A DNA stretch of 64,000 bases from Glandiceps talaboti (Eukaryota > Hemichordata > Enteropneusta > Spengelidae), in the NCBI RefSeq assembly GCF_964340395.1, contig NC_135566.1, positions 396,001 to 460,000 on the forward strand, written 5' to 3'. Position 1 is the first letter of the stretch, and every line of letters begins with the position of its first letter. Below, piece after piece: positions 11,661 through 33,900 of the stretch. A model generated the notes under the pieces. It did not search any database. It saw nothing but the letters and a program-made list of their open reading frames with translations, and had not been told where the DNA came from. A program made the translations under genes and the position numbers.

Positions 11661-14600
11661 TCAATCTGATTCTTCATCTGTATCCTCTGCTAGTACAACA
11701 GCTGGTTTGATATTTACTTGCTGTGATGTATTCTGGGATTGAGATGATCCAAAGAAGATAGACTTGAACTAGAAAAGAAGATTGTCTACTGTCAGTATAC
11801 ATTAAGACTACCTGAATATTGACACTATTAATATTATACTGGGTAGATATCAAGATTGTCTAATGTCAGTATACAGTAAGATTACCTGAATATTGACACT
11901 ATTAATATTATACTGGGTAGATATCATAGCAATTTCAACAAACAGTATTACTGGTATACATTTGAGAATGTAAGAACAATTTTTCAAAAAAGTTTTGACA
12001 GTAGATATTTTCATTACATTTTGTAAGTAGTATACATACTAGAAATATGTTTTTAGTAAAATCTAATAATTACATTGGTCAAAAACCCCCAAATGAAGTG
12101 TTATCATTTCTAAGGAGAAATCAAACACAGCCATAAATATGGATAAAATGTGACATTACCAAGTACATATACTAGGGTACAAGTATATCCATTTCATAAC
12201 TCATTTCTTACAAGTTTTCACAAATTATATGTCACATCCAAACAAACCTGCTGTTTCAAAAACTACTTCATGAATAAAACTGAAATGATATGTCAGTTAT
12301 TCCACTCACCAGTCATCAATAAATATTTAAATCTACATATTAAGAACAGATTTTCACTTTGAATATAATGTGTTTTTGTGACATTGTTAAGATGGAACCA
12401 TTGCACCCAATAGTCATGTAACCCTCTGTCTTTTGACACTACTAAAGAGTCAAATAATATGATTTGCTCACCTTTTTAGCTGGTGGTGTACTGGGTATAA
12501 ACTCAAACTCATTGTCATTATCATCATCACTTGGCATATCAACATCTGATGTTGTCTGGTCAAGATCACCCACAGTATCACTGGAAGGTTTGTCTTGTTT
12601 GTCTGTGGTTGTAGTACTCCTTACAGACTCCACTGTCTTGGTACCCCTATCCTGCTGCCTAACTGGTCCTACAATATAACAGAGTGTCTTGTCAGTGTTT
12701 TACTATGGTATGAGAACCCCAGTAGCAGAGAGAGAGAGGAAATCTGGTAAATATGACACAGATTGCAATACTTTGAATGCAGAACCTAGTAAAGCTCCTG
12801 GGGAACTTGGGTAACGTTTTTTTAACTACTTCCCACCCCATAACAAAAACAGTGGTGGTAGTATGCATACAAGAATAACAATGTTACATGTATGGTGACT
12901 TCATAAAATATCTGTTCTAACAAAAAATGGACACTCGATATGATGGTGCTATGCACGATTAAACTTCAAAATCAACCTCTTTAAGCATATTAAACAACTT
13001 GTTGATACAATGTATGGGTATGTGTGTATCAAAAACTTGAGGTTTCAATCTTAACTACACTGTAGGTAGAAAACCAAACACATCTTGATACTGTACGTAT
13101 TCTCTACAGATTGTTTATAATAAATCTATGTATAGGCTATCTTTACACAACGTTTTCAAATAAAAATGCAAATATCACTTTCATGTAATGCATTACATGA
13201 TGAAGTTACATGATAGGCCAACAAGCGTTTTTGACCACTGATACGGAAACACCAAAGACAGATTAAATTGAAAATGAGGTTGTTGCATACGTGCAAACAT
13301 TAGTACATCATAGGTGGGGGCCATTCCTAATGTCAAATATGGTTCGAATTGTTGTGTTTTTGGTCTTTTACATGACATAGTTATTCCACTTACACCTGTC
13401 TACATGGACTGCACTTTAGAATAGAAACAAATAATTTTCAAAATAATCCATTTTCAGCGGCATTTTCAAATCACTGCATTTTTATGTGTTTTTGTTGTCT
13501 CTGTGTAGACAATAGGTGGTACAAACACAACAAAAAACAATCATGAAGTTGGAGTTTCATTTGAAAGAAAATATATAGACAGGTTCCCTTTCTTGAGAGT
13601 GTCTTGGATGGCTCCCTACTGTGGCCATAGATCTAATAATTCATCAAAGGAAGAAACAAAAGAATGACAAGAGTTCAGGCTATTGCTTTAGAACCTTGGA
13701 TACAGAGAACATAGAAATCTTTGTAAAACTCACATACTTTCTGATATTTTGGTGGGAATCTATATAAAGCTCATGTGTACAAACCCATAACAAACTGCCA
13801 GTCATTACATTACATGTCATTAAAGTAATTAACAGAATCACCTTGGAATGTAAATGATTCACTTGAGGCATTACTGTTATCATCTCCCTCATCTACAACA
13901 TCTCTTGGTCTCCTAGCAACTACATCTTCCTTTCCACTATTCCACTTTGGTAGAAATCGGTTTGTTTCATCACTTTGCTTAGCATCTCCAGCCCCTTTCC
14001 TTGTATTACTTGTAGATGGTTTGGACAAATCAGTCGTCCTAAAACTAAAAATACACTCTCTCAAATACATCAAAGCAAATTATTTATATCCTATCTCATC
14101 CCTGTACTTAGAATTTTTCAGGAGTACAATCAAAATGAATTATCACTTTGCTAAATTTCTCATAAATTTTTCTGGAAAGTGGGTTTTATAGACCTCCATA
14201 GTATGGCTTATGGGTCCCTCCTAAAGTCAGCTCACTTTCACTGTACATCCTTGGTTTGCAAAAACCACATTCAGGTTGTAAAGATTAGTATTACAGCTGA
14301 TGTTAATCATTTGACTTTATTCATGTTGTAAAGTTTTTATTGCTGAAATTTTGAGAGTGGTACACATTTAATACTACCGGTAGTAGCTCAACAACACATT
14401 GACTTATGCAGAAAGAAAGGCATATTTTATCACACCAAAACAACATTCTAGTAGGATGTATTATTTACCTGTTTTGAAATGGTTTAGTCCCTCTATGAAT
14501 TTCTTTGATACTACTCTCACTCCTGTTGTCTGGTTTCTTGTTTTGCTGTCTTGCCTGTATTGGTGTTTCTTTAGTTCTGAAAACAATGCATGTACAAATC

Positions 14601-15233
14601 CTAAGTTTAGGACTTCATACAATTTTCAGGAATCTTCTACATTTCACTCAAACAAAGTTAATAATAGAAAGTACTAGTCAATATAATAAAAGCCATTCTT
14701 TTAATTAAACTGTACTTCTCACAAAACTGATAATAAACGAAAGGTAAAAGGTACAATTTAAGAACAGTGAACCAAGTAGTGTCTTCAGTTATCAAAATGG
14801 TTTCCTAAACACTAACTCAACCCTTACTACTAATTAGTAATTTTACTTAATCTTTCATTTTGCAGGTTTCCAATGCATAAAGACATTAGCATACAACAAC
14901 ATGGGTTAATGACGACATATTTAGTCTACAGATTTGGAGGCTTGCTGATAAAAAGACAACCAATTTTACCTGTGCCTCTGTACTGTTTTTTGTGTTGAAG
15001 TAGAAATAGAGGATTGTTGTTGTTGTTGTTGATGTTGTTGAGCAGAGTTCTGTGTTGATGATGGTTCTGCTAGTGTAGCAAGTACAAAACTAGCTTCAAA
15101 TACACCTTCTCCGTCTAAACAGAATACTATGGGTCTGAAAATAAAGTTATCAAATGTTACAAGATGTTATTCAATCCTATTTTTCCAAAATTGAAGATTT
15201 TTGTGTAACCCTCAGCCAGCCAGATGGACAGAC

Positions 15234-15266
<33 letters not shown>

Positions 15267-18200
15267 GTAAGTCAGCCAGTCAGCCAGTCAGTCAGTCAGT
15301 CAGTCAAACAGACAAATTCACTCTCTGCTGACAATTCATTTCTTTACTGAATTAGAATTTATCAAATATGAAATGCATTGTTCTTGTACACAGCACCTAA
15401 TATATGTTGTTCTATGTACAATAATCACTACATAAAAGTTGATACTTACTTTCCTAACATTTCAAATATAACTGATATTTGAAGACCACAAGAATCAGCA
15501 AATGATAATATTGCCTGCGATAAATTAAAAAGAAGAATATTAACAAAACCATGGATGAGGAGAATTAGATAAAACTCTGTAAGTTTATCCATAACCCTGC
15601 TGTATACTTTGCAATAATATACTAATTGTTCTCCAGTGCTCTACAAACTTAAATGAGGTGTCAAGGGACAGTGAGTCCGCTAGTAACTTCTTATACTGTA
15701 GTCTGGCTGTCTTTCATTTGATGCATGTAAAGTTAGTCATGCACAGTTACATCTTAGCAGTCATCAGAATCAATAAGTGTAATCTCTTTACCATAGGTAA
15801 TAGTCATTTTTGTCTCTATATCATGGCTAAACTCAGGAAACAATCCTTTCTTATCTTCAACCATTCACAAAGAAAGTTGTCATGGGTTTGTAAGCTCTCT
15901 CATTATAAAAATCCCAGAGAGTACACTGTACATCTAATTTGTATATTACAAACAACACATCAATATTGTGGTAGTCTACACTGGGTATTCACATTGACTT
16001 ACTGATCCATTTCTTTTTAGACCAAGTGTAACCTTTGTGTCAATACCCTTCAACCACCCTACCCCTGACCCCCACCCCAGAGATTTCATGCTGACATCCT
16101 CAATTCTTTTAGACAATGTAATCCGTGTAAATGTCCTTCAACCACCCCCACCCCGACCCCCCGCCACCACCCCAGAGATTTCATGTCAACTTACCCTCAA
16201 TTCCTTTAGACAGAATGTAACCTCTGTGTCTATACCTATTGTGTAATCTTCAAATTCTTCAGGTAGTAAACACATTTCTGTATGCATTACCCTTGTAGGA
16301 TCTGTGTAGGATGAACAATATAAATGAATCAACAATAGTTTGAACCATAGAGTCAGACAATTTTATATTTTCTAGCAGATAAAATAATAAAATACAGCAC
16401 AAGTTACGGTTACTGTGGTTTGAAATTGAGACACTGAATTTGAATATTTACATGTTTCAATTTTGATGATAATGGAAGAGGTGCAAACCCAGAGTAAGTC
16501 AATTTTATGATGTGTTCAAAGGTCAAGTTCAGATTAGGATCAAAATTGCATGATACTTACCAGGTTCATCATCTACATAGTTTTATTTGTATGATACTTA
16601 CCAGGTTCATCTACATAGTTTTATTTGTATGATACTTACCAGGTTCATCATCTACATAGTTTTATTTGCATGATACTTACCAGGTTCATCATCTACATAG
16701 TTTTATTTGCATGATACTTACCAGGTTCATCATCTACATAGTTTATTTGTATGATACTTACCAGGTTCATCTACATAGTTTTATTTGTATGATACTTACC
16801 AGGTTCATCATCTACATAGTTTTATTTGCATGATACTTACCAGGTTCATCATCTACATAGTTTTATTTGCATGATACTTACCAGGTTCATCATCTACATA
16901 GTTTCATTTGTATGATACTTACCAGGTTCATCATCTACATAATTTTATTTGCATGATACTTACCAGGTTCATCATCTACATAGTTTTATTTGCATGATAC
17001 TTACCAGGTTCATCATCTACAGTTTTATTTGTATGATACTTACCAGGTTCATCATCTACATAGTTGTATTTGTATGATACTTACCAGGTTCATCATCTAC
17101 ATAATTTTATTTGCATGATACTTACCAGGTTCATCATCTACATAGTTGTATTTGTATGATACTTACCAGGTTCATCATCTACATAATTTTATTTGCATGA
17201 TACTTACCAGGTTCATCATCTACATAATTGTATTTGTATGATACTTACCAGGTTCATCATCTACATAATTTTATTTGCATGATACTTACCAGGTTCATCA
17301 TCTACATAGTTTTTTAAACTAACTCTCTCAGGGGAAACAATGATACTTATTTCTTCCTGTGATGTTTGGAAATTACTAACTGCATCACATAACAACCTGT
17401 TAACAAATTGATCAATGATACATTAAATGGCAATACATAATGGATCTTAGTCTCATTGTGATAGATATGTCAGCCAGAAAATGGAAGCAACACATACAAT
17501 ACGGTGACATGCAGTATATATCATGTATATATAGTATATTGTTCCACAGTGCTAGAAACAGGTAGAGAAACTGACAGTCAAAGTTGTATCTCAAAAGAAA
17601 ATGGCAGGAACACATGTACATATGTCAGTACACATACAGTTTATTGCTATACAGAACTACAAACATGTTGAAACAAATCACTGATTCTGTCTACCAAATG
17701 AAGAAACTATCAAATTTGAAAAGCCTAAACAAATTCCTATAGGACATATTTTAGGAATACTTAAGAATTCCTATAGGATTCTTTTAGGAATACAAAAGGA
17801 TTCCTACAAGAGGTCTTTTAGGAATACTTGAAAATTCCTGTAGGATATCTTTTAAGTTTTAGGAATACTTTAGTATTCCTAAAAGACCTTCTATAGGAAT
17901 CCTTTAGTATTCCTAAAAGATTTCCTATAGGAATCCTTTAGTAATTTCCTAAGAGAATCCTATAGGAATCATTTTGTTTCCTAAAGGATTTGCATGGTGG
18001 AACATACCAATATATGAAATCATGACTGATCGTGTTAAAATGCAGAAAATTCAAAGTTCTGTTATTGTAATCTCCATAAAAAGTGACATAGAAGTGCTGA
18101 AGTTTGGTCTACCTGAAGATTTTTTTTAAATGACAGAAAACGATTTTAACACATCTTTAGGACTTCAGGGAATATGTCCTTTAGGAATCCTATAGGACTC

Positions 18201-18997
18201 CTATAAAAATCCTTTGGGACACGATGGTCCTGATTCCTATAGGACATTTCCGTAAGGGTTCAGCTGGCCATCACAAGAACAGTAAGCCTTCAGCTCAGTA
18301 GTGATCACATAGAGGCAAGACTAAGTATTTACCTTGATTGTGCTACTAATTTATTTGGACAGAGATCTTTGGAGAAGACAGCTTGCAGTGATTCAGTTTC
18401 TTGATAGGTTAGGTTGTATGTCTTTGTTATACCTGTTAAATAAAACATAAATATTTATCAACATTATAGATATCCAGGCATCATTATGACTTTTTCATAA
18501 TTCCCTCAGTTCTAAGACATGGACATTTATAGATTTTAAGTGGTCTTTGTTACATATATCAAGACTGCATGGATTCAATTGACTTTAGCCAAATGTACAT
18601 AAAGTGTACCACAAAATCATGAGAACAGAATTATGAAAAATACACAGTTAACAGCTTTTGGAGTCTTTAATACGACTACTACTTACCATGTTTACACATA
18701 TAAGGTAAATGTAAGTCTACTTACCATGTTTACAATATAAGGTAAATGTAAGTCTACTTACCATGTTTACAATATAAGGTAAATGTAAGTCTACTTACCA
18801 TGTTTACAATATAATGTAAATGTAAGTCTGGAATCACTGTTGTTTAATTTTATCTTGCATTTCTCAACCGTCTTCTCTATTGTTGATAGTGACTTAAACA
18901 CTGACAAACAAGACTAAAATAAAGAAAATTACTTTTTGATAACAAATACCAATAAATTATTTTCAGTTGTCATTATCATGTCATTGTTGTATCATAT

Positions 18998-19039
<42 letters not shown>

Positions 19040-20442
19040 CGATGACGATGATAATGACGATGACGATGACGATGACGATGGCGATGATGACAGTTTGTTG
19101 AGCTGTCTTCACGAATATAAATGTGACATAATTTTGGAGTATCAATAATATCAAACACCAATATCCATGGTCTAAAACTTAGTGTCCATGCTCCATGCAT
19201 ATTTAACAATCTCTACTAAAATGTACTGACTTAGATTAGTTTGCTTAAGTTTACAGTACATTGTCACTTCAGTCAAACACATTGTTTAGTTACAGACAGT
19301 GACTGTACCACCTTCAAACCTGAATAACCATGTTACTGTATAATCTTTCACAGTGGTGCATTTCAGATATATAAGTTTCCTCAGAGTGTCTTTATCAATG
19401 TATTCTTTCCTGTGGCTTTGTGTACCGTTACTTGTTTTGGCAGAGGAGTGATTGAATATACAATGTAAATGACCTACCTTCATGGTAATTTTACATTTGA
19501 AAGCACTGTCTTCATCCTGTATTTGTTGAGATGAATTGAGTACTCTACCATCATCATAAATGTAGAAAAATGTTGGTGCGAAGGTAAAACAGGCATAAGC
19601 TGACCTCGAGGAGTTCACAGTTCTCAAAGCAAGCTGGTAAGGTAAAGAAGATTTTGTTTTGTTTGTTTGTTTGTTTGTTTGTTTGTTTGTTTTGCAAATT
19701 AAAGATGATATTTGATTTCATTAAACTGTCCAAATTCTGTGGATGGCCAAAATAATACTGACCACTACTAGTAGTAATATTTAGATTCATCTCAAAACAT
19801 TTACATACTATACTGATGAGTAGTGAAACATTATTCTTAAAATGCACATTTGTTAATTATCATTATATTCGTAAATCATTAAAATTCTTAAATTATGAAT
19901 TCTAGTTTAATTAGGAAATGTTGCAAATGTTGGTACTGTATATGTATCTTACGCAATTAGCTATACACCAAAGCTCCAAGTGTAATTTGACAACCTGATC
20001 TTTACTCACCCCATGATCAAGTGGCTCAATGTACAGATCTTCACCAATTTTTGATAGGCAATGGATTGTACGTCCAAACACTGTAATGAAAACGATAGTT
20101 GATACAAAATTTAAAAGTACAAGTATTAGACATTAATTCACTATAATTGAATAGAACTTTATATAATTAAACCCAGCTGGATGTGTTGATCATTTATTAC
20201 TCACACGTTATTCGTTAATCATATCTATTTGTCTATTTATTTATTTATTTATTAACTTTAATGTATTCATTTTGTAAAGCCTTGTGAAACGTAACTTACC
20301 TAGTCTACATCAATTCGGCACATGGTGAATTTTTAATAAAATTAAAAACAATAATATTATTATTGGGTTACCACATTACAAAAAAAAACACCCACAAACA
20401 AACAAACAAACAAACAAACAAACAAACAAACAAACAAAACAA

Positions 20443-20478
<36 letters not shown>

Positions 20479-20682
20479 GCTTTTTTGTGAATTTTCAATA
20501 TCATAGGGAGGTGACATTTTTTGCGGGAAAATAGCATGTCATTCGTGCAACAACAAACACGACTCGACTGCATATTTGACAGGCATTCTTGTCTTGTGCA
20601 ATATTATGTAAAACAAGATTATAAAACTTATCAAGGATTCTCCTTAACCTTTGACATTGTTTCCTGGAATAATACACTTCAT
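11661..20682 (-). CDS. RAD9: Cell cycle checkpoint protein RAD9 (9-1-1 clamp subunit), 13 exons, 509 aa
   Basis: RAD9 is the PCNA-like subunit of the RAD9-HUS1-RAD1 clamp, loaded at damaged DNA to activate ATR. Exons in transcript order: 20649-20682, 20010-20080, 19478-19633, 18799-18913, 18333-18432, 17290-17396, 16195-16301, 15450-15514, 14970-15134, 14469-14576, 13842-14038, 12472-12668, 11661-11768. Every junction is AG/GT and in frame. The start [15 protein letters not shown] matches the RAD9 N-terminus, as do [45 protein letters not shown] and FVLATLAEP. The PCNA-like domains fill about residues 1-280. The tail is long, polar and contains a Gln run. The end carries [15 protein letters not shown] and [13 protein letters not shown], matching the vertebrate nuclear-localisation and acidic phospho-tail that binds TopBP1. 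At 509 aa it is longer than human RAD9A/B (about 390-430). Synteny points to the pre-duplication RAD9 at the RAD9B locus. Confidence 0.97.
11774..11930 (-). repeat. Tandem duplication of about 75 bp beside the last RAD9 exon
   Basis: Two copies share AGATTGTCTA, GTCAGTATACA and ATATTATACTGGGTAGATAT. The first copy begins about six bases outside the final RAD9 exon, within its acceptor tract. Confidence 0.85.
15199..15306. repeat. (CAGA)n and (CAGT)n microsatellite, RAD9 intron
   Basis: Runs of GACAGACAGACA and CAGTCAGTCAGT alternate with interrupted copies. Confidence 0.9.
15990..16240 (-). repeat. Three degenerate copies of the RAD9 exon 7 / intron 7 boundary
   Basis: The exon 7 end and its donor (plus strand about 16,180-16,240, CTTACCCTCAATTCCTTTAG) recur about 97 bp and 190 bp downstream in the transcript. 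The middle copy has CATCCTCAATTCTTTTAGAC and has lost the donor. The far copy near 16,000 keeps GACTTACTGATCC, which is GTAAGTC on the transcript. C-rich spacers AACCACCC/CACCCC join the copies. Confidence 0.75.
16549..17310 (-). repeat. 42-bp array copying the RAD9 exon 6 end and its splice donor, 19 donors
   Basis: On the transcribed strand each unit reads GTAGATGATGAACCTG (the last exon 6 codons) followed by GTAAGTAT and then about 20 intronic bases. I count 19 intact copies of the donor: the exonic one at 17,290/17,289 plus 18 in intron 6. Two unit subtypes (GCATGATACTTAC and TATGATACTTAC on the plus strand) roughly alternate. Read-through past the first donor meets an in-frame TAG within about ten codons, so only the exon-proximal donor gives the full protein. 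Confidence 0.95.
17727..18262. repeat. Foldback block of TCCTATAGGA-type palindromes, RAD9 intron 5
   Basis: The left part repeats ATTCCTATAGGA ... TTTTAGGAATAC. The right part repeats the inverse, GTATTCCTAAAAGA ... TATAGGAATCC. They meet at the perfect palindrome TAGGAATACTTTAGTATTCC near 17,865. A further TCCTATAGGA block lies at 18,165-18,262 after about 170 bp of unrelated sequence. This looks like a foldback element or a palindromic satellite, with no open frame. Confidence 0.75.
18683..18832 (-). repeat. 37-bp array copying the RAD9 exon 4 end and its splice donor, 4 donors
   Basis: On the transcribed strand each copy reads TTGTAAACATG followed by GTAAGTAG, then ACTTACATTTACCTTATA, which itself mimics the exon sequence CTTACATTTACATTATA. 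The exonic donor is at 18,799/18,798 and three more lie downstream in intron 4. Using a distal donor would add an immediate in-frame TAG. Confidence 0.9.
18996..19091. repeat. (GAT)n/(GATGAC)n microsatellite, RAD9 intron 3
   Basis: A pure GAT run passes into GACGAT hexamers. It gives spurious poly-Asp and poly-His frames. Confidence 0.95.
19661..19692. repeat. (TTTG)n microsatellite, RAD9 intron 2
   Basis: About eight TTTG copies lie near the exon 3 acceptor. Confidence 0.9.
20387..20477. repeat. (AAAC)n then (CA)n microsatellite, RAD9 intron 1
   Basis: Consecutive CAAA and CA runs are directly visible. Confidence 0.95.
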
Positions 20683-20923
20683 CTTGCATCAGATAGTGCG
20701 CTTTTCGGGAAAAACTACAAATCGAACAAACTACTGTTGACGAACTTTCAACAGGGCCGCCATTTTTCTAATTGACCAACTCTCTCCCGAAGATAATATG
20801 TGATCTTATTTTTGATTGGTCATACTGACGCATATGGTAACTCTAAGCCAACCCAACTCCTTCTCTTATACAATACTAGGTGACGCCATCAACATGCGCC
20901 AGTAGTTCTGCGCATCAGTCAAA
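20683..20923. promoter_or_regulatory. Bidirectional RAD9/VPS29 promoter
   Basis: The two start codons point away from each other across 241 bp, so both promoters must lie here. Visible elements are an inverted CCAAT box (ATTGGT at 20,815-20,820), ATGCGCC and TGCGCAT half-sites resembling NRF-1 motifs near 20,894 and 20,908, and GCCGCCAT near 20,757. CpG is more frequent than in the flanks. Head-to-head arrangement of these genes is also known in human, from memory. No TATA box is evident. Confidence 0.75.
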
Positions 20924-22962
20924 ATGGTGGGTGTCTCTCTTTCTCGTTCATTTTATGCTTATTTTCTTCGGTTTAGCCGAATTTAATGTTATTTTAAAAC
21001 AAGGATGCGATTGAATATATATTTAAGGTAATTGTGATGTAACTAACTTAGGAATAACGACTCATCTCTTTGAGATACTAGCTGGTCAAAATATCATGTT
21101 AGTCATGTGACCCCGGAAGTGGTCGATCATAAAATGTTGGCACACAGATTTTAGTCGTCATGTGATGTTGTATATTAAGTGAGATTATGATAATTTGAGA
21201 ATGTGAACTGTAAATGATTGTTAAATTACTGAGAAAGTCAATTTTACTATTTATTTGTTACTTCATTGCCTAATAAAGGAATCGAGCAAGCTGTACATGC
21301 ATGGATCATTGAGGTTATCCTAGTCCTCATACATTATACCTCCATGGTAAGATATTGGCAGTGCGTTTCATTACATGTAATAGTCTTCAAGGTTAATTTT
21401 TGAATTCATGGAAGGGTTATGTATTGTCATGCAATGATGTGTATAAAGTATAAGAATACAAACACAAAGATAAATGTAGATATATGTGAAATTTAGAAAG
21501 TGTTTTATTCTTACTTACTGTCTCTATGTACTTGCATGGTGTATTTATTAATTTATAGTGCAAGTACAGTAATCATTATCAGATGAAGTCCTTATTCATT
21601 AAATTTTGAAACATTTTACCATTTGAAGCTCAGACGTAAAGGAAATATACTTCTTTTTCTCCCCAGTTGGTTCTTGTACTTGGAGATCTTCACATACCAT
21701 ACAGGTGTAACAGTTTACCTGCTAAATTTAAAAAGCTGTTAGTTCCAGGAAAGATCCAACATATTTTATGTACAGGTAATCTGTGTACCAAGGAGTCTGT
21801 TGATTACCTCAAAACATTAGCAAGTGATGTCCATGTTGTCAGGGGAGACTTTGAGGAGGTAGGTGTCAATGATTATTGATAGTGTTCAATTATCAAAGTT
21901 AAATATGCCAGTTTCAGCTCTTGAATAGTTAATGCAATTCTTTAAATTTATGTCATTTTCTATTTTTCTGTGATCCCAAATTTTCATCTCTAAGAATGGT
22001 GGGCTGGGTGTCATTCCAAAATCTTTTAATTCTTTTTTCTCTGCTTTTTGAGAAAAATGAAAATTAATATTATTTTGCCTTTTTTTCTTGTCAGAATTTG
22101 AATTACCCAGAACAGAAGGTGGTAACAGTTGGACAGTTTCGTATTGGCTTATGTCACGGACATCAAGTGGTTCCGTGGGGTGATATTGAAAGCTTAGCAT
22201 TGGTAGCAAGGCAGCTAGATGTTGATATTCTCATTTCTGGACAAACACATAAATTTGAAGCATTTGAACATGAAAATAAATTCTTCATAAATCCAGGGTC
22301 AGCTACAGGAGCTTACAGTCCTCTTGATACGTAAGTATTCTTTCTGTCTGTGTCTGTATATAATATACACCGGAAGATCCTGTCTCAGTGTCTGTAAGTA
22401 TTGTACACTGAAAGATCTTTTCTCAGTGTCTGTATATATTATACACTGGAATATGAAGGATTGTGTATTTGTAAATATATCATTGGAATATTTTGAACAT
22501 CAAGCTCATACAGCTGCATGCAGAGTATCAATAGTATGTGCAAATCATTACTAACATGAAATCCACCATCTCCATGTTGGAATTTCCAATGATGCAAAAA
22601 TACAGGCAAATATTCTTATATGTAGCCACTCTGTGCACTCTATAGGGAATTCTTGGTTTTCCTTGAACTATGGTTTCAGTTGGGAAGGGAGAGGGGGAGA
22701 TTTTAGAGAGGTGATGGCATTTTTTGCCAGTTTGTATGGACCAAATTGCATTCATGGAAACTCACATTTTCAGCTTTGGCTTGACAAAAAAGACAATATT
22801 AAGATGCAGTTGTTGACTGATATATTTTTCCTTTGTCTTTTCTTCAGGAATGTGTCACCATCATTTGTTCTTATGGATATCCAGGCATCAACAGTAGTAA
22901 CATATGTTTACCAGTTACTAGGTGAAGAGGTCAAAGTTGAAAGAATAGAATACAAAAAGTAA
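20924..22962 (+). CDS. VPS29: Vacuolar protein sorting 29, retromer subunit, 181 aa
   Basis: VPS29 is the metallophosphoesterase-fold subunit of the retromer (VPS26-VPS29-VPS35) and retriever complexes, which return cargo from endosomes. Four exons: 20924-20926, 21667-21858, 22095-22330, 22848-22962. The first coding exon is just the ATG followed by GTGGGT. It joins TTGGTTCTTGTA to give [12 protein letters not shown], the expected N-terminus. Very highly conserved blocks follow: [85 protein letters not shown] and [20 protein letters not shown], ending [10 protein letters not shown]. The length is within one residue of human (182). It shares a promoter with RAD9 and converges on the FAM216 gene. 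Candidate AATAAA signals lie near 23,344 and 23,726. Confidence 0.98.
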
Positions 22963-23779
22963 TCACAAAGTTTTACAAGTTTTATTACGAGACTATATAT
23001 ATTAACCTAGTTCTTTGTTTAATGGACTTTGCCAATCAAGATTATGGAAAGCACAGAGGTCACTGACATTGGCATTGACAAAGAATGTGAAAAGTGAAGC
23101 TATGGTATTCAAATTTGTCACAATGGTGACCCTTAAACAAGTGAACAGTCAGACACTTGAGGGCACTGTTCAACAGAAATAATACCCCTCGTGAACTTTT
23201 CTTCATGAGGAAACAAATAGGAGGCCAACCTATAATAATCATTTCAAAGTGCTGCAGAAAACTGCCAGCACTGCAAATACCCCAGAGCAACCACACTGGA
23301 AATCACGTGGCATGGAGTTCTGTTATTATTACATGTGTTTATCAATAAAAATCATACAGCGTGATCACACCCGTGTAGTGAGCGATTGTGTCCTCATTTG
23401 CATGCAGGTATGCAATAATATTTTCAGTATTGCACTGCAGTGAGAATACCATTAGTATGTGCACGCACCAAGTAATCTCTTGTACATAAGTAATAATACA
23501 CATTATACATTGTGTTGTAAAAATTCCAAGTATCTATTGTATACACTGGTGACATTGTTTAGACACTTGGTCAAAATCATGGTTGAATTGTTTGAGCCAT
23601 GTCCAAAGGTTCCTAAACACACTGTAATTCAGTCAGTGTCAAAGTTATATTATTTCACAATCTAATAGAGAAATGTAAGCTTGGCAAATCATTCCCATTT
23701 GTACAGTAGCTATAGCGTCATTAGAAAATAAAGCAGATATACATATGAAAACTGATGTGTGTATTTTATTGAGTGCATG

Positions 23780-24095
23780 TCTAGCTGTTTGTGTGTAACT
23801 CTTGTCCTCCCACTTTACCTACCATGTGCTCCCTTATCCTCTTCCTTCAACATGCTTGTTTAGTTTTAATCACCAGGCTTGTTCAAACCTGAGTCTGTGT
23901 ATATCTTTTAAATGCAGAGAATGTAAGAAGTAAATGAAGTGTGGGTCTGTTTTTATGTAGTCTTTTACTCAGATTTCAACGTCTTCATACTTCTATTGTT
24001 CTTGGTATTTTAATGTGTAAGGTTATATGTATGTTTTTTTCTGTGTTGTTGCAAGACAAATTTCCCCGTGAAGGATAATAAAGTAATAATAGTAA
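23780..24095 (+). mobile_element. 3' end of an L2/CR1-type LINE (or a derived SINE)
   Basis: The segment ends GCAAGACAAATTTCCCCGTG, then AAGGATAATAAAGT and an imperfect TAA/TAG tail, very like the conserved 3' tails of L2/CR1 elements (AATTTCCC...GGAnAATAAAGT). The left limit is uncertain and no reverse transcriptase sequence remains. It sits downstream of VPS29. Confidence 0.6.
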
Positions 24096-24189
24096 TCCAT
24101 TTGTAATCATTTTCTACTTTAGTTTTGTTGTGTTGTGTGACAAAAACTATCCTATGTTGTAAGTATTCTGATTCATGTTATCATTCCTA

Positions 24190-24500
24190 CATGGGCACTG
24201 TCAGTGTCTTGAGGTGGAATGTGTCCAGTCTGTGCATATCTGTACAACCCATGGTCACTGTCACTGTCATGAGGTAGCAATAGGAATGTGTATAGTCTGT
24301 GCATACAGGTATCTGTACAACCCATTGGCATTGTCAGTGTCTTGAGGTGGAATGTGTCCAGTCTGTGCATATCTGTACAACCCATTGGCACTGTCAGTGT
24401 CTTGAGGTGGAATGTGTCCAGTCTGTGCATATCTGTACAACCCACTGGCACTGTCAGTGTCTTGAGGTAGTAATAGGAATGTGCCTAGTCTGTATCTGAA
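24190..24500. repeat. 60-bp minisatellite, about 5 copies
   Basis: Units share CATATCTGTACAACCCA, CACTGTCAGTGTCTTGAGGT and GGAATGTGTCCAGTCTGTG. Two copies carry a GTAATAGG-type insertion. Several overlapping false frames arise here. Confidence 0.95.
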
Positions 24501-27500
24501 CAACCCAATACTGTGCCACCTTGCATCATTGTAAATCACTGCCCTCTAAAAGACAATACTATCTGTGCCATCTTGCTCTGTCATAAACCAAAGTCCTCTT
24601 TACCACAATCCTACCTTGCATAATTATGCTCAATCAAGAGTAGCATGTCATATTGCAGCAACAAAAAATATTCTGGCTTGTGAGTATATCATCTCGGGAC
24701 TTATCTAATTCCTACAATTACATACATTCCCCAAGTCTTAGACAGTTTACAGCTATGCAGTACTTTGATATATAGATTGCAAGAGAAATACAGATGGTAA
24801 AATTACGCTGGTCCTTATTGTGCAACTAACCAGAAAATAAAAAACATTTGTTAGATAGACCATGATCAGCCATTCACATATTACACAAAACAATACACCA
24901 TGATTTGCAATTTTTACATATTTAATACAAATTACAAATAAGAGTACTAAACATTTGTTTTGAGTATTGATGGTATCTACAAGTGTATACTGTGCACTTC
25001 AGTTAAAAGCTTAAAATGTATTTACCAGTATGATTAGATCATCTACCGATTGCTTTAAAACTCGTAAATATCAGTTTCTAGACCACTATAATTTGTGTAG
25101 GAATTCATTGACAGAAAATGGTTCATGCAGACTCATTACTTAGAAAGTTCTAAAAAAATGTCTCTTTCTAAATTTACACAATCATTCCTTGTCCATGTGT
25201 TATTATTTTAGTTTATTGATATGCAATGAAGTGTATGATGTAAAACTGAAAATATATCAAATGTAGTTGTACAGTTGCTTCGATAAAAAGTTGTTTTTAT
25301 AGCAATTGAAGCAATACTTTATGCACACGTATATCTATGGCCAAATGTCCTTCGATCTATGAGGAGAACAGATCTACAAACCCTTCAAATCCAAGAACAT
25401 AATTAAAAGTGACCCTTCCTTTGATCAAATATACAGTGTCTCTCTAATGTATGGTTTATTTCACTCACACTTCCTTCCCTAATAAAAATACTGTGCTATC
25501 AATACTGGGGGTGACTGTATCTGATGGGTTGGTGTATAGCTATATATAGTAACAGCCTAACTACATACAAGTCACTATAGACTCAAAAAATAAATCTTGA
25601 CCAAATAATGTCAAATTCCTAGATTTATGTGCCTTTCTTTGTAAATAAATGCTGGGTAGTCATCTATACAGGGGCATATTCGATTTGCACAATCATAATC
25701 ATGATTTATCAATCATATTCATGATTTCGCATTTGATAAGTACCAATCACAGTCATGATTGGTAATCACAGTATCATGCCCCAAAATATTATTGTAGTGA
25801 TTACAAGATGGCAGACAATGTAATATCATGAGGGGATTGTGAGCGTGTGGCTGACGGCAAGTTCAAAATGACGGAAAACATTATGTAAATAAATTGTGTT
25901 CGGTGAGATAGGTAATTTGTTATCATTGTAATCATTTAGACAAAGTAAAATAATTTAATTTTTACACGTCAGTAATCATGATCATTTTGTTTACAAACTC
26001 ATTTCAGATAAATCACTATCATGATTGGGCAATTCAAATGCGCCCCAGGCCTTTCATAAACTGTAGGGGGCGCTGTTGATGGATAAGAGCAGTAAAACTA
26101 ACTTATTTGAAAGTAAATTTATACCATGGAAACACATCTTGGAATAGTGGGATGCGAGAAACAAAGCATGTGAAAGAATACATACTTTTGTTATTCTCTA
26201 GAAAAACAAAATATAAATGAGATGATCTTAATTCATTATTCTGAGCTGCTATTCTCATTGTATTACCTTCGCTGAGGTTCTAGGAAGATACAAATAAGCC
26301 CTATTTTGTCTTTACATGATAGATGTCTTTGGGAAGTAAAATCTGAAAAATGGGACAGCTTATCATTGAATTGTATTGTACATAACACAGATGCTATGAT
26401 CAAACCAACAATATACAATGTACAAAAAAAAAATTCAAAGTGAATTCTAACATTTATTATACCACAATGGTTATTTTGAACCAGTAGTTACAATAATAGC
26501 CAAATGATATTTGCAAGATAAATTACAAAAGCGATTATCAACATCAAAGTAAATGTATAAAACATTTATTTCCAAAATGCAGAAAGTTTTTTACAAAATA
26601 TAATATTCCTATTGTTTAAGACTTTGAAGATATGTATTCATTTGCATAGGTTATATAATATCACATGACAAAGTCACATGATTCAATACAGAAAACACAT
26701 GACCTCATGAATCACTGCTAAGAAAAATGATCAAGTCACATGATTCAACACACAGAAAACATGAAAATCTCACATGAATCAATGCTTCGGAAAATGACCA
26801 AGTCACAAGAACAATGCTGTCATGTGACCATGTCACATGATTCAGCACTTTAATCACATGTCAGCTGCATGTAGCAGACGACAGATACTATCATACACAC
26901 AATAAGGTACAAGAGTAATTTAGAGCAATCTTCATTTCTCACTTCATTCTTTGTAGTCTGAAATAAGTTTGTCTATAATATACAAAAAGTTAAAATACAA
27001 AATCATCAATCTGGCACTGACAGTGATTGCCTATTAAAATACATACAAGATCAGAAAGATTTTGACAAAATATTTACACTAGCAAACTCAAGTTTTATTT
27101 TTTCTATGAAAAATTCTCTACTAAAATTTTTAGCTTCACATTTACAGCAAATTTCACGATGACTTTGTGAATACAGATTTCAACATACTATCAAATCACT
27201 AACATCCATAGACCTTTTTAAATCTGAATGAGTATTTCAATAAGTCTTCTTATCTGTGGTCTTGCTGCACCCATTGACTGACAAACTGAAGGCTAAATAC
27301 AAGAATTCACTAAAAAGTACCCTCACAGACAAGATTTTCTTTGCTGTTTCAGTTTCATACATAGTAGAATGAAGACCTCTTTGAAAAGAAAAAATGCGGT
27401 TGTCAAGTACACATTATTTTTACACCTCGGTGGCTTTTTTTTCTGGAAAATAAGTTTATTGAGTCAGTCTGAACTAAACAAAAGTCAAACTTTTACTTGT

Positions 27501-27997
27501 TTTTTTAAATTTTGATGTTCAAACAAAGCAATACCCTGCAATGGTATAATAAGTAACTAATTTTCATATTTTAAAAGTCTTACAAAAAACATAATACTAC
27601 TTACAGGAACATAATAATACAATATATACATTGTACTGACTTCTACAGGGGGAAGTTTTCCCATGTACATGTGTAAGCAAAATTTTAACAGTTAAGTTAT
27701 GTTTTACTTGAATTAAATCTATTCATTCTTTTTGCACTATTATTATTTCCATATTTTCTTATTCCACCTACCTTCATAAATGCCATTGAAAATTTTAGAA
27801 TAAGTGAGACCATTTTGAAATAGATTTCTATATTTTGAATAATCACTTATAGGTGGTAATATAATGTATAATTAACAAATTAACAAATACCTGTATATAG
27901 TATACTTACTAGTTATAAACTTTCATATCTAACTTTTCTTGCTATTTCATTGACACATTGATCATCAATTCTTTGGTATATCATACAATTTACATTA
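24501..27997. other. Non-coding gap or long FAM216 3' UTR
   Basis: No exon was recognised. It lies beyond both VPS29 and the convergent FAM216 stop, so part is probably FAM216 3' UTR; minus-strand AATAAA candidates lie near 26,569 and 27,105. Apart from the 376-bp inverted-repeat element, there is a cluster of CACATGA words (26,660-26,870) that repeats loosely. Confidence 0.55.
25671..26046. mobile_element. 376-bp MITE with 40-bp terminal inverted repeats
   Basis: The left end GGGGCATATTCGATTTGCAC, continuing to ATGATTTATC, matches the inverse of the right end (GGGGCGCATTTGAATTGCCC, continuing to TGATTTATC) at roughly three quarters of 40 positions. The interior is AT-rich with several ATCATGAT palindromes and no open frame. 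It is a non-autonomous DNA transposon by structure. The superfamily was not determined. Confidence 0.7.
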
Positions 27998-30900
27998 TCA
28001 TTTTGCAAGTGTACTCCAAGGAGTACCTGTAGCCTTTTCATCACCTTGATCCTGGGATGCTGTCTCTGTTCCTTTATTTTGAGAGGCTGATGTTTCCTGT
28101 TCAGTGTGGTCATCACTTTCTGTGTACGTGTCATCATTCTGTGTTTCTTCTTGATTGGTTTGGTCATCAGTTTCTGTTGTTTGGTCTCCACTCTCTGTGG
28201 TGGTGGCAAGTACAGTCCAGCCAGTTTGACCAGCTCCACTGTCACCTCTTGGTGTAGTACTTCTACTGCTACTTTCACCACCACTACTACTGCTACTTTT
28301 CTCATTCTTGTTTTTATCTTCACTTTCTGTTTGACTCTCACTGCTCTTTGTATTATCAACAAGCGTTGTCCAGTCTTTCTTGGTGTCTTCTCTTGGTGTA
28401 GTACTTCGGCTACTACTTGCACTACTGTCACTGCTGCTACTAGCACTGCTACTACTGTCACTGCTGCTGCTGCTGCTGCTGCTACTACTGGTAGATTGCC
28501 GTCTCTGTGGTGTTGGGCTGTCAGACTCACCTGGCCTCTGTCTAGTCCGCCCCTTTGAAGACTTTGGTCTACTACTCATACGTGATGGAGGTCTAGGGGA
28601 AGGCTCTGCTGATTTACTTTGGGCTCTGCAAATACAACAATGATGTACATTCACTATCTACAATTCTAATCGGCACAAAAACAAGACATGTAGAGGGCAG
28701 TGTGAGATGCAACACTTTAGTCAAAATAGGTTATATCCAAAACACCATCACTTACAGAGATACCACTTTGAGACGGCCATTGCAATAAATTGATATGAGT
28801 CAACCATAAATTCAGAAACACACAATAAAAGTTATATATAGAATTCAAATAAATAATAAATTCTGAAACCAGACATGTAGCCCTGTGTATGAAAGTACTA
28901 TAGTACTTTTGTCATGGATGGTTGGATACATGTAAAACACCATACAAAGAATTACAAGCCAGAGATGGGTATTAAAATACAGGTTAACCATGTATTCAGA
29001 AACATTATATAAAAACAGAAATATTATAATAGACAGATAACAGGATGTCTTCTTCTGTTTTTGTGATTTCAACATCTCAAATATTTTGTATTTGTAATGT
29101 CAGAACTGATGATTGATTTCACTGGTGTACCAACCACACACCAAACAGAGATGAAGGGTGATACAAACTTCCAGGCATCTATGACCCCTTATTAAGCTCC
29201 ATAAGGTGACAATTGTGCTGAATTACAGTGGTGAATATTCTGTTAACAAAAACTGAAGTATGCTGTTGTAAATTTCAAGTAATGATTATCAAGTTTGTGT
29301 TTGAAACAAAAGATAAACATAAATGATTTTGATATGATAAAGTAGGAGAGAGATTACATGTAGTTCTGGTACTGAAGTTATCAATCTGTTTACTTTATTA
29401 CAACAACATGATATTTGACATGACAGTCCTATATATATTGATACCAAGCCTTAGACAGTAAAGTAAGGCTATTTCAACTCATTTAAAGACAAAATAAATT
29501 TTTTTTACATACCTTTTATTTTTAGGTTTGCCTCCACCACCATCTTCTTCCTCTTCTTCAAAATCATCATTATCATCATATTTACCATGGTCATCGTAAT
29601 AGAAAGACGCACTACTGAACGCTCGTCTGTAAATCATGTCTCTCTGTCGTAATCTGACCGGTGTCTTTGGTGGGTCTCGCCACACACTAGGATCAGTTTC
29701 AAACTGTTTCTTTCTAGCTCCGCCAAAATATTTCTGATACTTTTTATATAAACCTGGTTCATGCCAACCTAAAAAGTGACCACATAAATTAATATAAGTT
29801 AGTCAAAGAGAAACAAGGATTTACTGAATGTGCCTTACTTTTCAAGACTTCAAACTTAATTTCTTAATTAATGAATAGAAAGCTTATTTTGTGCAAAGGG
29901 CCAATGACACTTACAGATGAATGTGTTCTTTCATTTTTTTTTTAAATGTATACATCATATATATCATACCATATAATTTCTACTGGCCATTTTTCCCTAA
30001 TTTTCCTTAGATTAACAGGGTTAAGTTAATATTACTCTACCGGCACTGGGAAGACAATATCACAATAGACAGTACCCAACATTCATTTTTCAATTTTTAA
30101 GACCTAAAACACAAATGTGTAACTTACCTGATATATTGAGATATCTCGATTTTTAATTTGGGAATTGTTTGTTAAAATTTAAATAATTGGTATTTTGTAT
30201 TTTCTGAATCAGAATTAAGTTCTCATAATGCACCAAATATATACATCTATGTTAATGATGTCATGTTATTTCCCAAATCATTATGATCATTGCCAGGTCT
30301 GTTATCAATTAATAGAGTCAACAGGTCGACAATATGAATGAAAATTTGGCATTACAAAAAACATCAAAATTCATAACATTGAACATATCCATTTTTTTTA
30401 AATCACATTTATGACACTCTAATGGTCCAAATAAGTCTAGTTAACATTTCTACTTTTAGTCTTTACTAGTCTGCAAGATACGACATGTCATATGCCACAC
30501 TTATCACTCACTATAATGGAGTTGGTCGATGTGTGAGGATGCCCTAGATCACAGCAAACCTTACAGACTACTAAATCTTACCATAGACCCTCCACGAGGG
30601 TCTATGATCTTACCTAACTCCTTGTTGGTCGATGTGTGAGGGCACCATATCACAGCAAACCGTACAGAATAAATCTTACCAAACTCCTTGTTGGTTGATG
30701 TGTGCGGGTGCCCTATCACAGCAAATCTTGCAAACTAAATCTTACCTAATTCTTCTTGTCGTAGTAAAACTCTTTCATAATTCTTCTGTTGTAATTTCTT
30801 CATATTACTCATACTATAGATAGATGCAGTGTGCCATAGATATAGTTTCTGTCCATACTTGAGATCAGGGTGTTGAAGTTGATAGCTGTCACTAAATGAA

Positions 30901-33900
30901 TTAGGACAGTGATTGACTCGACGGAAAGGCTTCTTGTATGGAGTATACCACAAATAATATTTATAGTACTGTGGGTGGATGTAACTACTTCGTTCTGAGC
31001 CCTCGGACGGAGTCTCACTCTTGGAACCATCTGTGATGAAAACATTTTTGTTCTTATTACTTTTAGAAATCATTATTCAAACCTGACTGAATCTATCATG
31101 TTATTCATTAATGGATGGGTAAAGTGCATTTGGCTAAGACTGTTATACAGAGCTATACAGTAATGCCATTATACAATCAACTTCAATCCCTTTCCTAAAG
31201 TCTTAAAACAAATCTATAGGTCTGGAACTATACATGATAGGGCTATGTTGCACACTCGCTATTATGTCAGAATTCCATTTAGGTCTGGGACTATACATGA
31301 CAGGGCTATGTTGCACACTCACTATTACGTCATCATGAAATGGTCAAGGCTTTCCAAGTCAGTTCATAGTTATCCTAGTGTTACCCAGTCCAAGTAATGC
31401 ATATTTCTGTAGCACCTGTGTGGGCTGTGTGTGTATTGTCCCTAACTGTTTGGGTCATTACTTCAGGAGTTCCACCCATATTCACATTTGTCTTACGAGT
31501 GAGACACAGCTGTCGAGTGATACAGCCATCCCACCCATCAAATCTGTACAGCAGTCTCACCCTAGGTATGGGTCAGTCCCCTGTTTCTAGTGGGATTTAA
31601 ACCCATGACACCACCCCCCCCCCCCACCCCCACCCCACCCCCGACTGCAAGTCTGATCAAGCTTTAACCATTATACCATAGGGAGCCAAGAAATTCTTCA
31701 TATGAAACAAATAATGTAGAAAACATTTTGATCTGAATTTACTAAACTCACCTGGGAATTGCTTTTTCCTTCTGGGTGTTTGTGATGGAACTGAGTGTGG
31801 CCTTTGCTCTTTAGAACTCTTTATTTTGTTTGGCTGCAAAGATAAAATCAGAGAAGATATTATAGTTTTCTATGAAAATGTGTCAAAAAAGGAAACAAAT
31901 GTCATTATGTGATTCATAAAATCCAAAATAGCTATTGTCTCTTCATTGGAAATGATAGAAATTATGACTGAGTTACAACATTTTTGAACATTTATAGTCA
32001 TATTCCAAATAGTGCTTGACTCTCTCAAATGGAACTTTCAAGTTCAGAAAAACATTTATTTCCATGACAAGGAAATAAAGTTAAATTAATTGTATAGAAT
32101 TTTAGTGGACAAAACTTAGTATAAAAACCACACAGTGACTTTGGATTACTGCTTATTGTCACTCTAAAACCTATTTTCTTATAAGCCACAGCTTCTCTCT
32201 AGCATTTTTACAATATATCAAAATATATGTACTATAAAAATCCTAACAGAGGCCGGGGCTACTGCTTTAAGAAAACTGGTGTACATGTACATGCAAGCAT
32301 GAATGTATGCACGCACGCACGCACGCACACACACACCGTAGATGGATCAAGTAGGAATGAGAACACTGTGTACTTACTTCATTCTGTTTACGTTTTGAAA
32401 GTTTAGAATCGGTGGAAGATGTTGTGGTAGAAGTTCGAGATGACATCTCAGATCTACTAGTGTATTCACTATCAGATTCACTGTCTTTGCTGGCTGCAGG
32501 TACATGGATCTCTTTTTTCTTGGTGCTTCCTTTCTTTGTACTCTTTGTACTGGATTTACCCTGTCTGTTATCAAAGACACAACATCATATAATATCAGTA
32601 ACAATTCACCATTTTAAAAACTTTATCCCAACCACACTAGCAATGTGCCTTTTGCTGTATACTGTACTTTGATAATTTGGTTCTGTAGGACACAGCTCAT
32701 TATATCACTTGCAAACCAGCTATATCTGTTAAAACAGAAAATATGGAATTTATACCCTAGTCATTCTATGTTATGACAAGCACATCCACATCATTGGTTT
32801 TGCATGACTCCAAATAATATGATTCATAACTTTTAGAATGATCAGTTTTCCTCCTTTTCCTAAAGACTAAGCCTGCAGAAGTATGATTATATAATTTTCT
32901 AATATTTTTCTTTATTTCTTTGTCCAGATAAATGTTTTATTGTCCAGTGAGTGGTGACACTTTGTCAGGTCATAAGAAACAAAGAAATATATCAGTATGG
33001 CTGCCTTTAATAAAATGTTTTATTATCCAGTGAGTGGTGACACTTTGTCAGGTCATGAGAAACAAAGAAATATATCAGTATGGCTGCCTTTAATACAACA
33101 ATGTTTTATTATCCAGTGAGTGGTGACACTTTGTCAGGTCATGAGAAACAAAGAAATATATCAGTATGGCTGCCTTTAATACAATGTTTTATTATCACTT
33201 TGTCAGGTCATAAGATCATTAAGAAACAAAGAAATATATAAGTACATGTATGGCTGCCATTGATACAATGTTTTATTATCCAGTGAGTGGTGACACTTTG
33301 ACTTGCTGAGTCAAAACACTAATAATTTAGATGACCTAAGATTAATCCTTGACTAAATACATGTTACTTGATATATTACTGAAAGATAAAGTTAAAGTAC
33401 ATGTAATAATGGTCAAAAGGGTGGGTGGAAACAAATCAGTGACATTTCATTCTCCCCTGTCATTTAAATCCAATCTGACAAGTCTTTACATGTTACCATG
33501 ACAACACCCAGTGTACATGAAAGCAAAACATATAAGAATAGAGCACATTTATGAAATCTATCTCTTTCACGAGACTGTGTGAAGAGATTTCATAATGTAC
33601 ACTATTGTATTAGGAGCAATTGCTTATTTCCGACAGTTGGATTTTAAAGTCACTTAATGCATAAGCTTCCTAACTTTCTACTTGCCGAACGGAAACTAAC
33701 CATACAGCATTGTTGAATTGCTAACACTGAGTGGCAGCTTAAACCAAGTACATTGAGTTCTTTTCATTATACTGTATGACATGCTTCAGTAACTATGTAT
33801 TGTACACAAACCTACACATTACAACATATACATTCATTGACTTGTAAAGTGGATATTTATTTCATCACATTTAGTCCTACATATTATTACTTTCTGGGTT

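Follow-up and report, generated by a model that had tools for sequence, protein, structure and literature searches.

The donor array behind RAD9 exon 6

What does it mean for a gene that one of its exons is followed by copy after copy of its own complete 5' splice site, and which of these sites would the splicing machinery use? The question is raised by a window of 64,000 nucleotides from the genome of Glandiceps talaboti (contig C19, positions 396001-460000), in which positions are counted below unless another locus is named. On the minus strand of this window lies RAD9, the gene for a subunit of the checkpoint clamp. We placed nine exons by hand, from 20,682 to 14,970, as a partial model of a gene that extends further. 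The spliced reading of 306 amino acids matched human RAD9A in the PDB (7z6h) over query residues 1-294 with an E value of 3.2e-77, and the same model scored 288.5 bits against the Pfam family Rad9 (PF04139). Exon 6 (17290..17396, minus strand, 107 nt), defined by the gene model and the RAD9A match, ends in its true donor at 17,290, which reads CCTG/GTAAGTAT, the slash marking the exon edge. Its join to exon 7 (16195..16301, minus strand, from the gene model) at 17290/16301 is in frame and reads E-P-D-P-T-R. An Rfam search of the window gave no matches.

The exon 6 boundary is straddled by a tandem array of a 41-bp unit (16546..17313, minus strand), for which TRF reported a period of 41, 19.0 copies, 94% matches and a score of 1347. 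Each unit combines ~22 bases from the end of exon 6 with the donor and 19-20 bases of the intron. The initial annotation had described a 19-copy array of a complete 5' splice site behind this exon, with a donor core that hardly changes between copies. TRF and the homology-based gene model bear out the first statement, and the second is matched by 19 donors out of 19 that read GGTAAGTAT. In the whole window this motif is found 19 times on the minus strand, always within the array, and not once on the plus strand. The 19-fold donor array stands far above chance expectation. In plus coordinates, the last exon base of donors 1-10 would be 17290, 17249, 17208, 17167, 17126, 17085, 17044, 17005, 16964 and 16923, and that of donors 11-19 would be 16882, 16841, 16800, 16762, 16722, 16681, 16640, 16602 and 16561.

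The authentic boundary is located at the edge of the array. Copy 1 (17290) keeps the reading frame, and the other 18 copies lie inside intron 6 (16302..17289, minus strand, 988 nt by the gene model). The array accounts for about three quarters of this intron, whose 3' part, including the acceptor, is outside it. Splicing from a distal donor would add between 41 and 729 nt to exon 6, and all 18 distal donors run into the same in-frame stop after residue 203, as the initial annotation had anticipated in speaking of an early stop.

The differences between units are few and structured. Substitutions occur in just 4 of the 41 columns, three of them intron-derived, one (C/T) at the exon-derived edge; the donor itself has none. 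Small deletions make up the rest, one of 3 bases shared by two units, and others of 2 bases and of 1 base in one unit each. Counted by cell, substitutions were seen in 0 of 171 positions in the donor columns versus 18 of 597 elsewhere; with 4 of 41 columns variable, the chance that all nine donor columns escape variation is P = 0.355. The two unit subtypes said to alternate do so strictly in copies 1-6, and follow one another irregularly afterwards. Units 3-4 and units 5-6 are identical 82-bp blocks, and identity reaches 99.4% over ~160 bp between units 10-13 and 14-17, and also between 11-14 and 15-18. These two- and four-unit block duplications, read in one haplotype, point to growth in the manner of a minisatellite, with several units passed on per exchange.

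Arrays at other exons and in other genes

Exon 6 is one of three RAD9 exons with such an array. At the donor of exon 4 (18799..18913, minus strand, gene model), TRF found a 37-bp array of 4.1 copies with 98% matches (18679..18829, minus strand). It contains four intact ATG/GTAAGTAG donors, and each of the three distal ones would lead to a stop after residue 127. At the donor of exon 7, a decayed array of about three copies of ~95 bp (15970..16240, minus strand) reaches into intron 7. Its copies are 73-90% identical with gaps excluded, copy 2 is without a donor, and copy 3 has GTAAGT without the preceding G. Among the RAD9 boundaries tested, arrays in differing stages of decay were present at 3 of 8 donors and at 0 of 8 acceptors. 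Donor 1, with one weak match of 23 nt (E 0.011), is left out of the three.

We then considered a larger sample of the same contig, C19:346001-660000 (314 kb, of which 5 kb are N), which contains the window. Minisatellites are very dense in this region, where 116 tandem arrays with a period of at least 20 (mean 58.7 bp) cover 35.6 kb, or ~11%. A scan for donors returned 32 array-strand rows with at least two alike donor-like sites. We inspected the context of 17 of these rows and of one locus from an earlier list (L018), and judged the unsupported ones non-exonic by eye. Six donor arrays have homology support, namely those at RAD9 exons 4 and 6, at a FAM216-like exon, in two gamma-glutamyltransferase genes (GGT-A and GGT-B), and at a phospholipase-B-like exon.

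The two gamma-glutamyltransferase genes carry 107 (GGT-A) and 17 (GGT-B) donors at the same exon, reading GAG/GTGAGT or GGG/GTGAGT. The near-identical donors of GGT-A follow its penultimate exon in an array of 6.2 kb (L003:8875 to L004:5049 on contig C19, minus strand). When the first of them was joined to the last exon, the Pfam score rose from 32.8 to 58.2 bits and the alignment extended to the end of the profile. The array of GGT-B is located at L006:2388-3369, and its exon was identified by near-identity to that of GGT-A. Use of its second donor would add 19 residues to the protein, in frame and without a stop. The phospholipase-B-like exon (PF04916, E 1.4e-9) has three donors. The FAM216-like exon ends in a 66-bp array of 2.1 copies with GGTAAGA donors (30607..30746, minus strand); this array is weaker, and with 27.7 bits for PF15107 the exon passes a cut-off of 27.

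One array was found at an acceptor. Nine copies of a 50-bp unit with CATTGCAG (L017:8187-8644, plus strand) precede an exon of SMARCB1, identified by a PDB match with an E value of 1.7e-22. Stop-free reading is possible from the last of the nine acceptors only; two of the other eight regain the frame, but behind stops. The acceptor scan of the 314 kb gave 26 rows. The frames of all were inspected, one row was searched for homology and matched, and the rest were judged by eye. With its cut-off of 6, it would overlook three of the eight RAD9 acceptors, which score 4.8, 5.5 and 5.6, and it is the less sensitive of the two scans, so the ratio of six donor arrays to one acceptor array, both counted with homology support, is soft.

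Some further features of the region are recorded here in their own right. A 68-bp array of 37 copies (L021:5507-7969) shows GAGGTGAGA on the minus strand, and no upstream exon was recognised by eye. Behind a VPS29-like exon, 2.7 copies of a 38-bp unit occupy 22350-22451 of the window (plus strand); this array starts ~20 nt into the intron and does not include the donor. The RAD9, VPS29-like and FAM216-like genes are neighbours in the window (12400-31000), the name VPS29 coming from a reading of the peptide. RAD9B, VPS29 and FAM216A are neighbours on human chromosome 12 as well.

Counts over the whole genome suggest that such arrays are common in it. Triplets of GGTAAGT at 20-50 bp spacing numbered 9,161, and those of the reversed motif 4,306, figures that count triplets and in which long arrays weigh heavily. 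Single GGTAAGT motifs outside arrays showed no excess in the 314 kb (50 versus 59 for the reversed motif). In the first 5.05 Mb of another contig, C1, the matches listed comprised nine distinct GGTAAGT arrays, all of which we inspected. Judged by an open frame and an acceptor, four of these nine look exonic (L031, L032, L033 and L035), two are doubtful (L029 and L030), and three do not look exonic (L027, L028 and L034). The exon at L031 is LRRK2-like, with clear homology in the PDB (E 3.2e-8) and a score of 24.3 bits against Pfam ARM_LRRK2, under the cut-off of 26.2. Against Pfam, L032 gave a weak match far under the cut-off, and the exons at L033 and L035 gave none.

Across nine arrays (RAD9 exons 4 and 6, FAM216-like, GGT-A, GGT-B, phospholipase-B-like, LRRK2-like, L032 and L033, the last two counted within the retrieved sequence only), an in-frame stop comes before 171 of 172 distal donors, the exception being the second donor of GGT-B. 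Arrays of the exon 6 type occur elsewhere in RAD9, in further genes of contig C19 and on another contig, and the arrangement is therefore not special to RAD9 exon 6. The array is one of several found here, and the genome probably contains many more.

Growth, site choice and competing explanations

We consider it likely, with a probability of roughly 0.8, that the exon 6 array is a mirage minisatellite, that is, a duplication across the exon boundary that grew by unequal exchange and has no RAD9-specific function. A short tandem duplication would have straddled the boundary between exon 6 and intron 6, and the array would then have expanded by unequal exchange, by one or more units each time. 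If splice sites are paired so as to give the shortest exon, the exon-proximal donor would be chosen, and the distal donors would be silent or would yield rare transcripts that nonsense-mediated decay clears. With the exon-proximal site in use, the mRNA would be unchanged and growth of the array nearly neutral, drifting like any minisatellite, and its chief lasting effect would be a longer intron. Among the possibilities in the initial annotation was a minisatellite that arose at an exon boundary, and this is the one that the likeness to other RAD9 exons, other C19 genes and another contig, together with the duplication of multi-unit blocks, leads us to retain.

Exon definition is the pairing of splice sites across the exon. 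The copy that gives the usual protein is the exon-proximal one throughout, the first at donors and the last at the SMARCB1 acceptor. Exon definition fits both, whereas a rule by which the first transcribed site is used would fail at SMARCB1. The reading frames thus suggest that the exon-proximal site is chosen by exon definition, with the acceptor side represented by one array.

How often should minisatellites fall on splice sites by chance? Given 116 arrays in 314 kb and their mean period of 58.7 bp, the probability that a random array edge lies within one unit of a given donor, which we took as the model of a boundary-spanning array, is ~0.022 per donor. With an assumed 100-200 donors in the region, 2-4 donor cases and equally many acceptor cases are expected. 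We found six donor cases and one acceptor case; the six become five if the arrays of GGT-A and GGT-B have a common origin. Targeting of donors was rejected as a necessary cause, because with 100-200 donors the density of minisatellites suffices and explains most arrays. The excess of donors over acceptors is suggestive only, and a donor-linked cause is possible.

Poison exons, like some alternative 5' splice sites, work through nonsense-mediated decay, and the initial annotation had proposed that the array could act as such a switch, with conditional use of distal donors setting the level of RAD9. The resemblance lies in the premature stop that distal donor use would add. Every one of the distal donors at exon 6 (18, residue 203) and exon 4 (3, residue 127) leads to one, and none of the 19 copies at exon 6 has a damaged donor core. 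Any intron sequence, however, is expected to bring a stop shortly behind a donor, and stops stand ahead of the same 171 of 172 distal donors in the nine arrays. In the decayed array of exon 7 a decoy donor has been lost. The pattern also recurs, in contrast to poison exons, in unrelated genes: the same arrangement is seen at the GGT, phospholipase-B-like, FAM216-like and LRRK2-like donors and at the SMARCB1 acceptor, and is therefore not tied to RAD9. The stops that the proposal relied on are real, but a switch specific to RAD9 is unlikely. A second proposal, that the copies buffer the gene against loss of its true donor, could point to eighteen identical spares. Yet each of these adds the same stop and would not restore the protein, so none can replace the true donor, the buffer fails, and we give this reading next to no weight.

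Selection on the decoy donors for binding of U1 snRNP, for instance to guard against premature polyadenylation or to raise expression, would be expressed in the donor columns. In seven arrays, 1 of 63 donor columns was variable versus 31 of 232 other columns (one-sided p = 0.003). When three arrays that had been found by an exact donor pattern were removed, the counts in this less biased set were 1 of 36 versus 19 of 147 (p = 0.063). The seven-array count left out GGT-B, as the sister of GGT-A, and the FAM216-like, exon 7, L029, L030 and L035 arrays. Across ~108 copies in GGT-A, the six core columns of the donor are free of substitutions. The higher conservation of donor columns relative to the rest of the units is a weak sign against a neutral minisatellite. 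Against selection for U1 binding stands the small number of independent mutated columns: because copies homogenise each other, columns and not copies are the unit of evidence. One copy in GGT-A carries a deletion across the donor columns, the exon 7 array, outside the column count, has lost the donor of copy 2, and intron 6, at 988 nt, is short. We regard selection of this kind as about as improbable as the RAD9 switch. Marginally less so, and still doubtful, is a broader proposal in which splice-boundary minisatellites form a class spread over the whole genome, found by extrapolation at hundreds of exon ends or more. Selection for U1 snRNP binding would keep their decoy donors intact, and these would help or regulate the gene instead of riding along silently.

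The array might also be a false expansion of a short repeat in the assembly. Tandem arrays are hard to assemble, and the copy number given here is that of the assembly alone. The structured differences between copies, with two subtypes and deletions of 3, 2 and 1 bases, speak against an artefact, as do the independent arrays at several exons and an assembly of 47 contigs for 590 Mb, and we consider this explanation very improbable, though less so than the buffer.

Relation to known mirages and meaning

The closest parallel comes from amphioxus, where, in the available excerpts of the reports, tandem copies of exon-intron boundaries in the Adh3 and globin genes were named 'mirages' and include both boundary types (PMC3087553), and PGBD5 and troponin C were added as further cases (PMC3902484). 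The units measure 10-72 bp in Adh3, 60 and 108 bp in PGBD5, and 150-160 bp in the globins BflGb6 and BflGb9 (PMC3087553, PMC3902484). In the same excerpts, mirages are reported without disturbance of splicing (PMC3087553, PMC3902484), and the Adh3 data together with RT-PCR of the globins were taken to suggest normal splicing despite them (PMC3087553). As excerpted, these cases share with the RAD9 array the boundary-spanning copies, many with a splice signal, and the turnover of a minisatellite (PMC3087553, PMC3902484). They differ in copy number, with 3-6 copies in the globin mirages versus 19 in RAD9 and 107 in GGT-A (PMC3087553, PMC3902484), and, as far as the excerpts extend, in that RAD9 has several arrays in one gene and abundance throughout the genome is indicated. 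The link to amphioxus is one of likeness, the splicing of the RAD9 array being predicted here from sequence. All cases called mirages in these excerpts are from cephalochordates; a search of the present genome for the GFP family gave 0 matches, an outcome without weight since the control genomes gave none either.

Two further systems were compared, again from excerpts of the papers. In human segmentally duplicated genes, minisatellites with a mean unit of ~30 bp alter gene structure at exon-intron boundaries and can alter splicing (PMC2812944). Those repeats are often exonic or create new introns and alternative transcripts, whereas the RAD9 copies sit in an existing intron (PMC2812944). In the Rogers model, as cited in the available part of PMC3087553, introns are gained by tandem duplication of a segment with AG/GT. 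A tandem duplication with splice signals is common to that model and the RAD9 array, but here, as far as the cited model goes, the copies lengthened intron 6 and did not create it. A new intron gained by AG/GT duplication would be bounded by two copies of the duplicated segment, and intron 6 does not fit this, its acceptor at 16302 lying outside the array, which ends at 16546. Among the papers and excerpts that our literature search covered, none described arrays in RAD9 and none surveyed mirages across a genome.

The arrays amount to a natural experiment on splice-site choice, in which a single site has to be selected from among 3 to 107 near-identical donors, or from nine near-identical acceptors. 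The reading frame is kept open only by the exon-proximal site, except at the second donor of GGT-B with its 19-residue insert. A rule based on exon length predicts the outcome at donors and at the acceptor, and a first-come rule predicts that at donors only, the acceptor side being a single array. The arrays also illustrate a simple route by which introns may grow.
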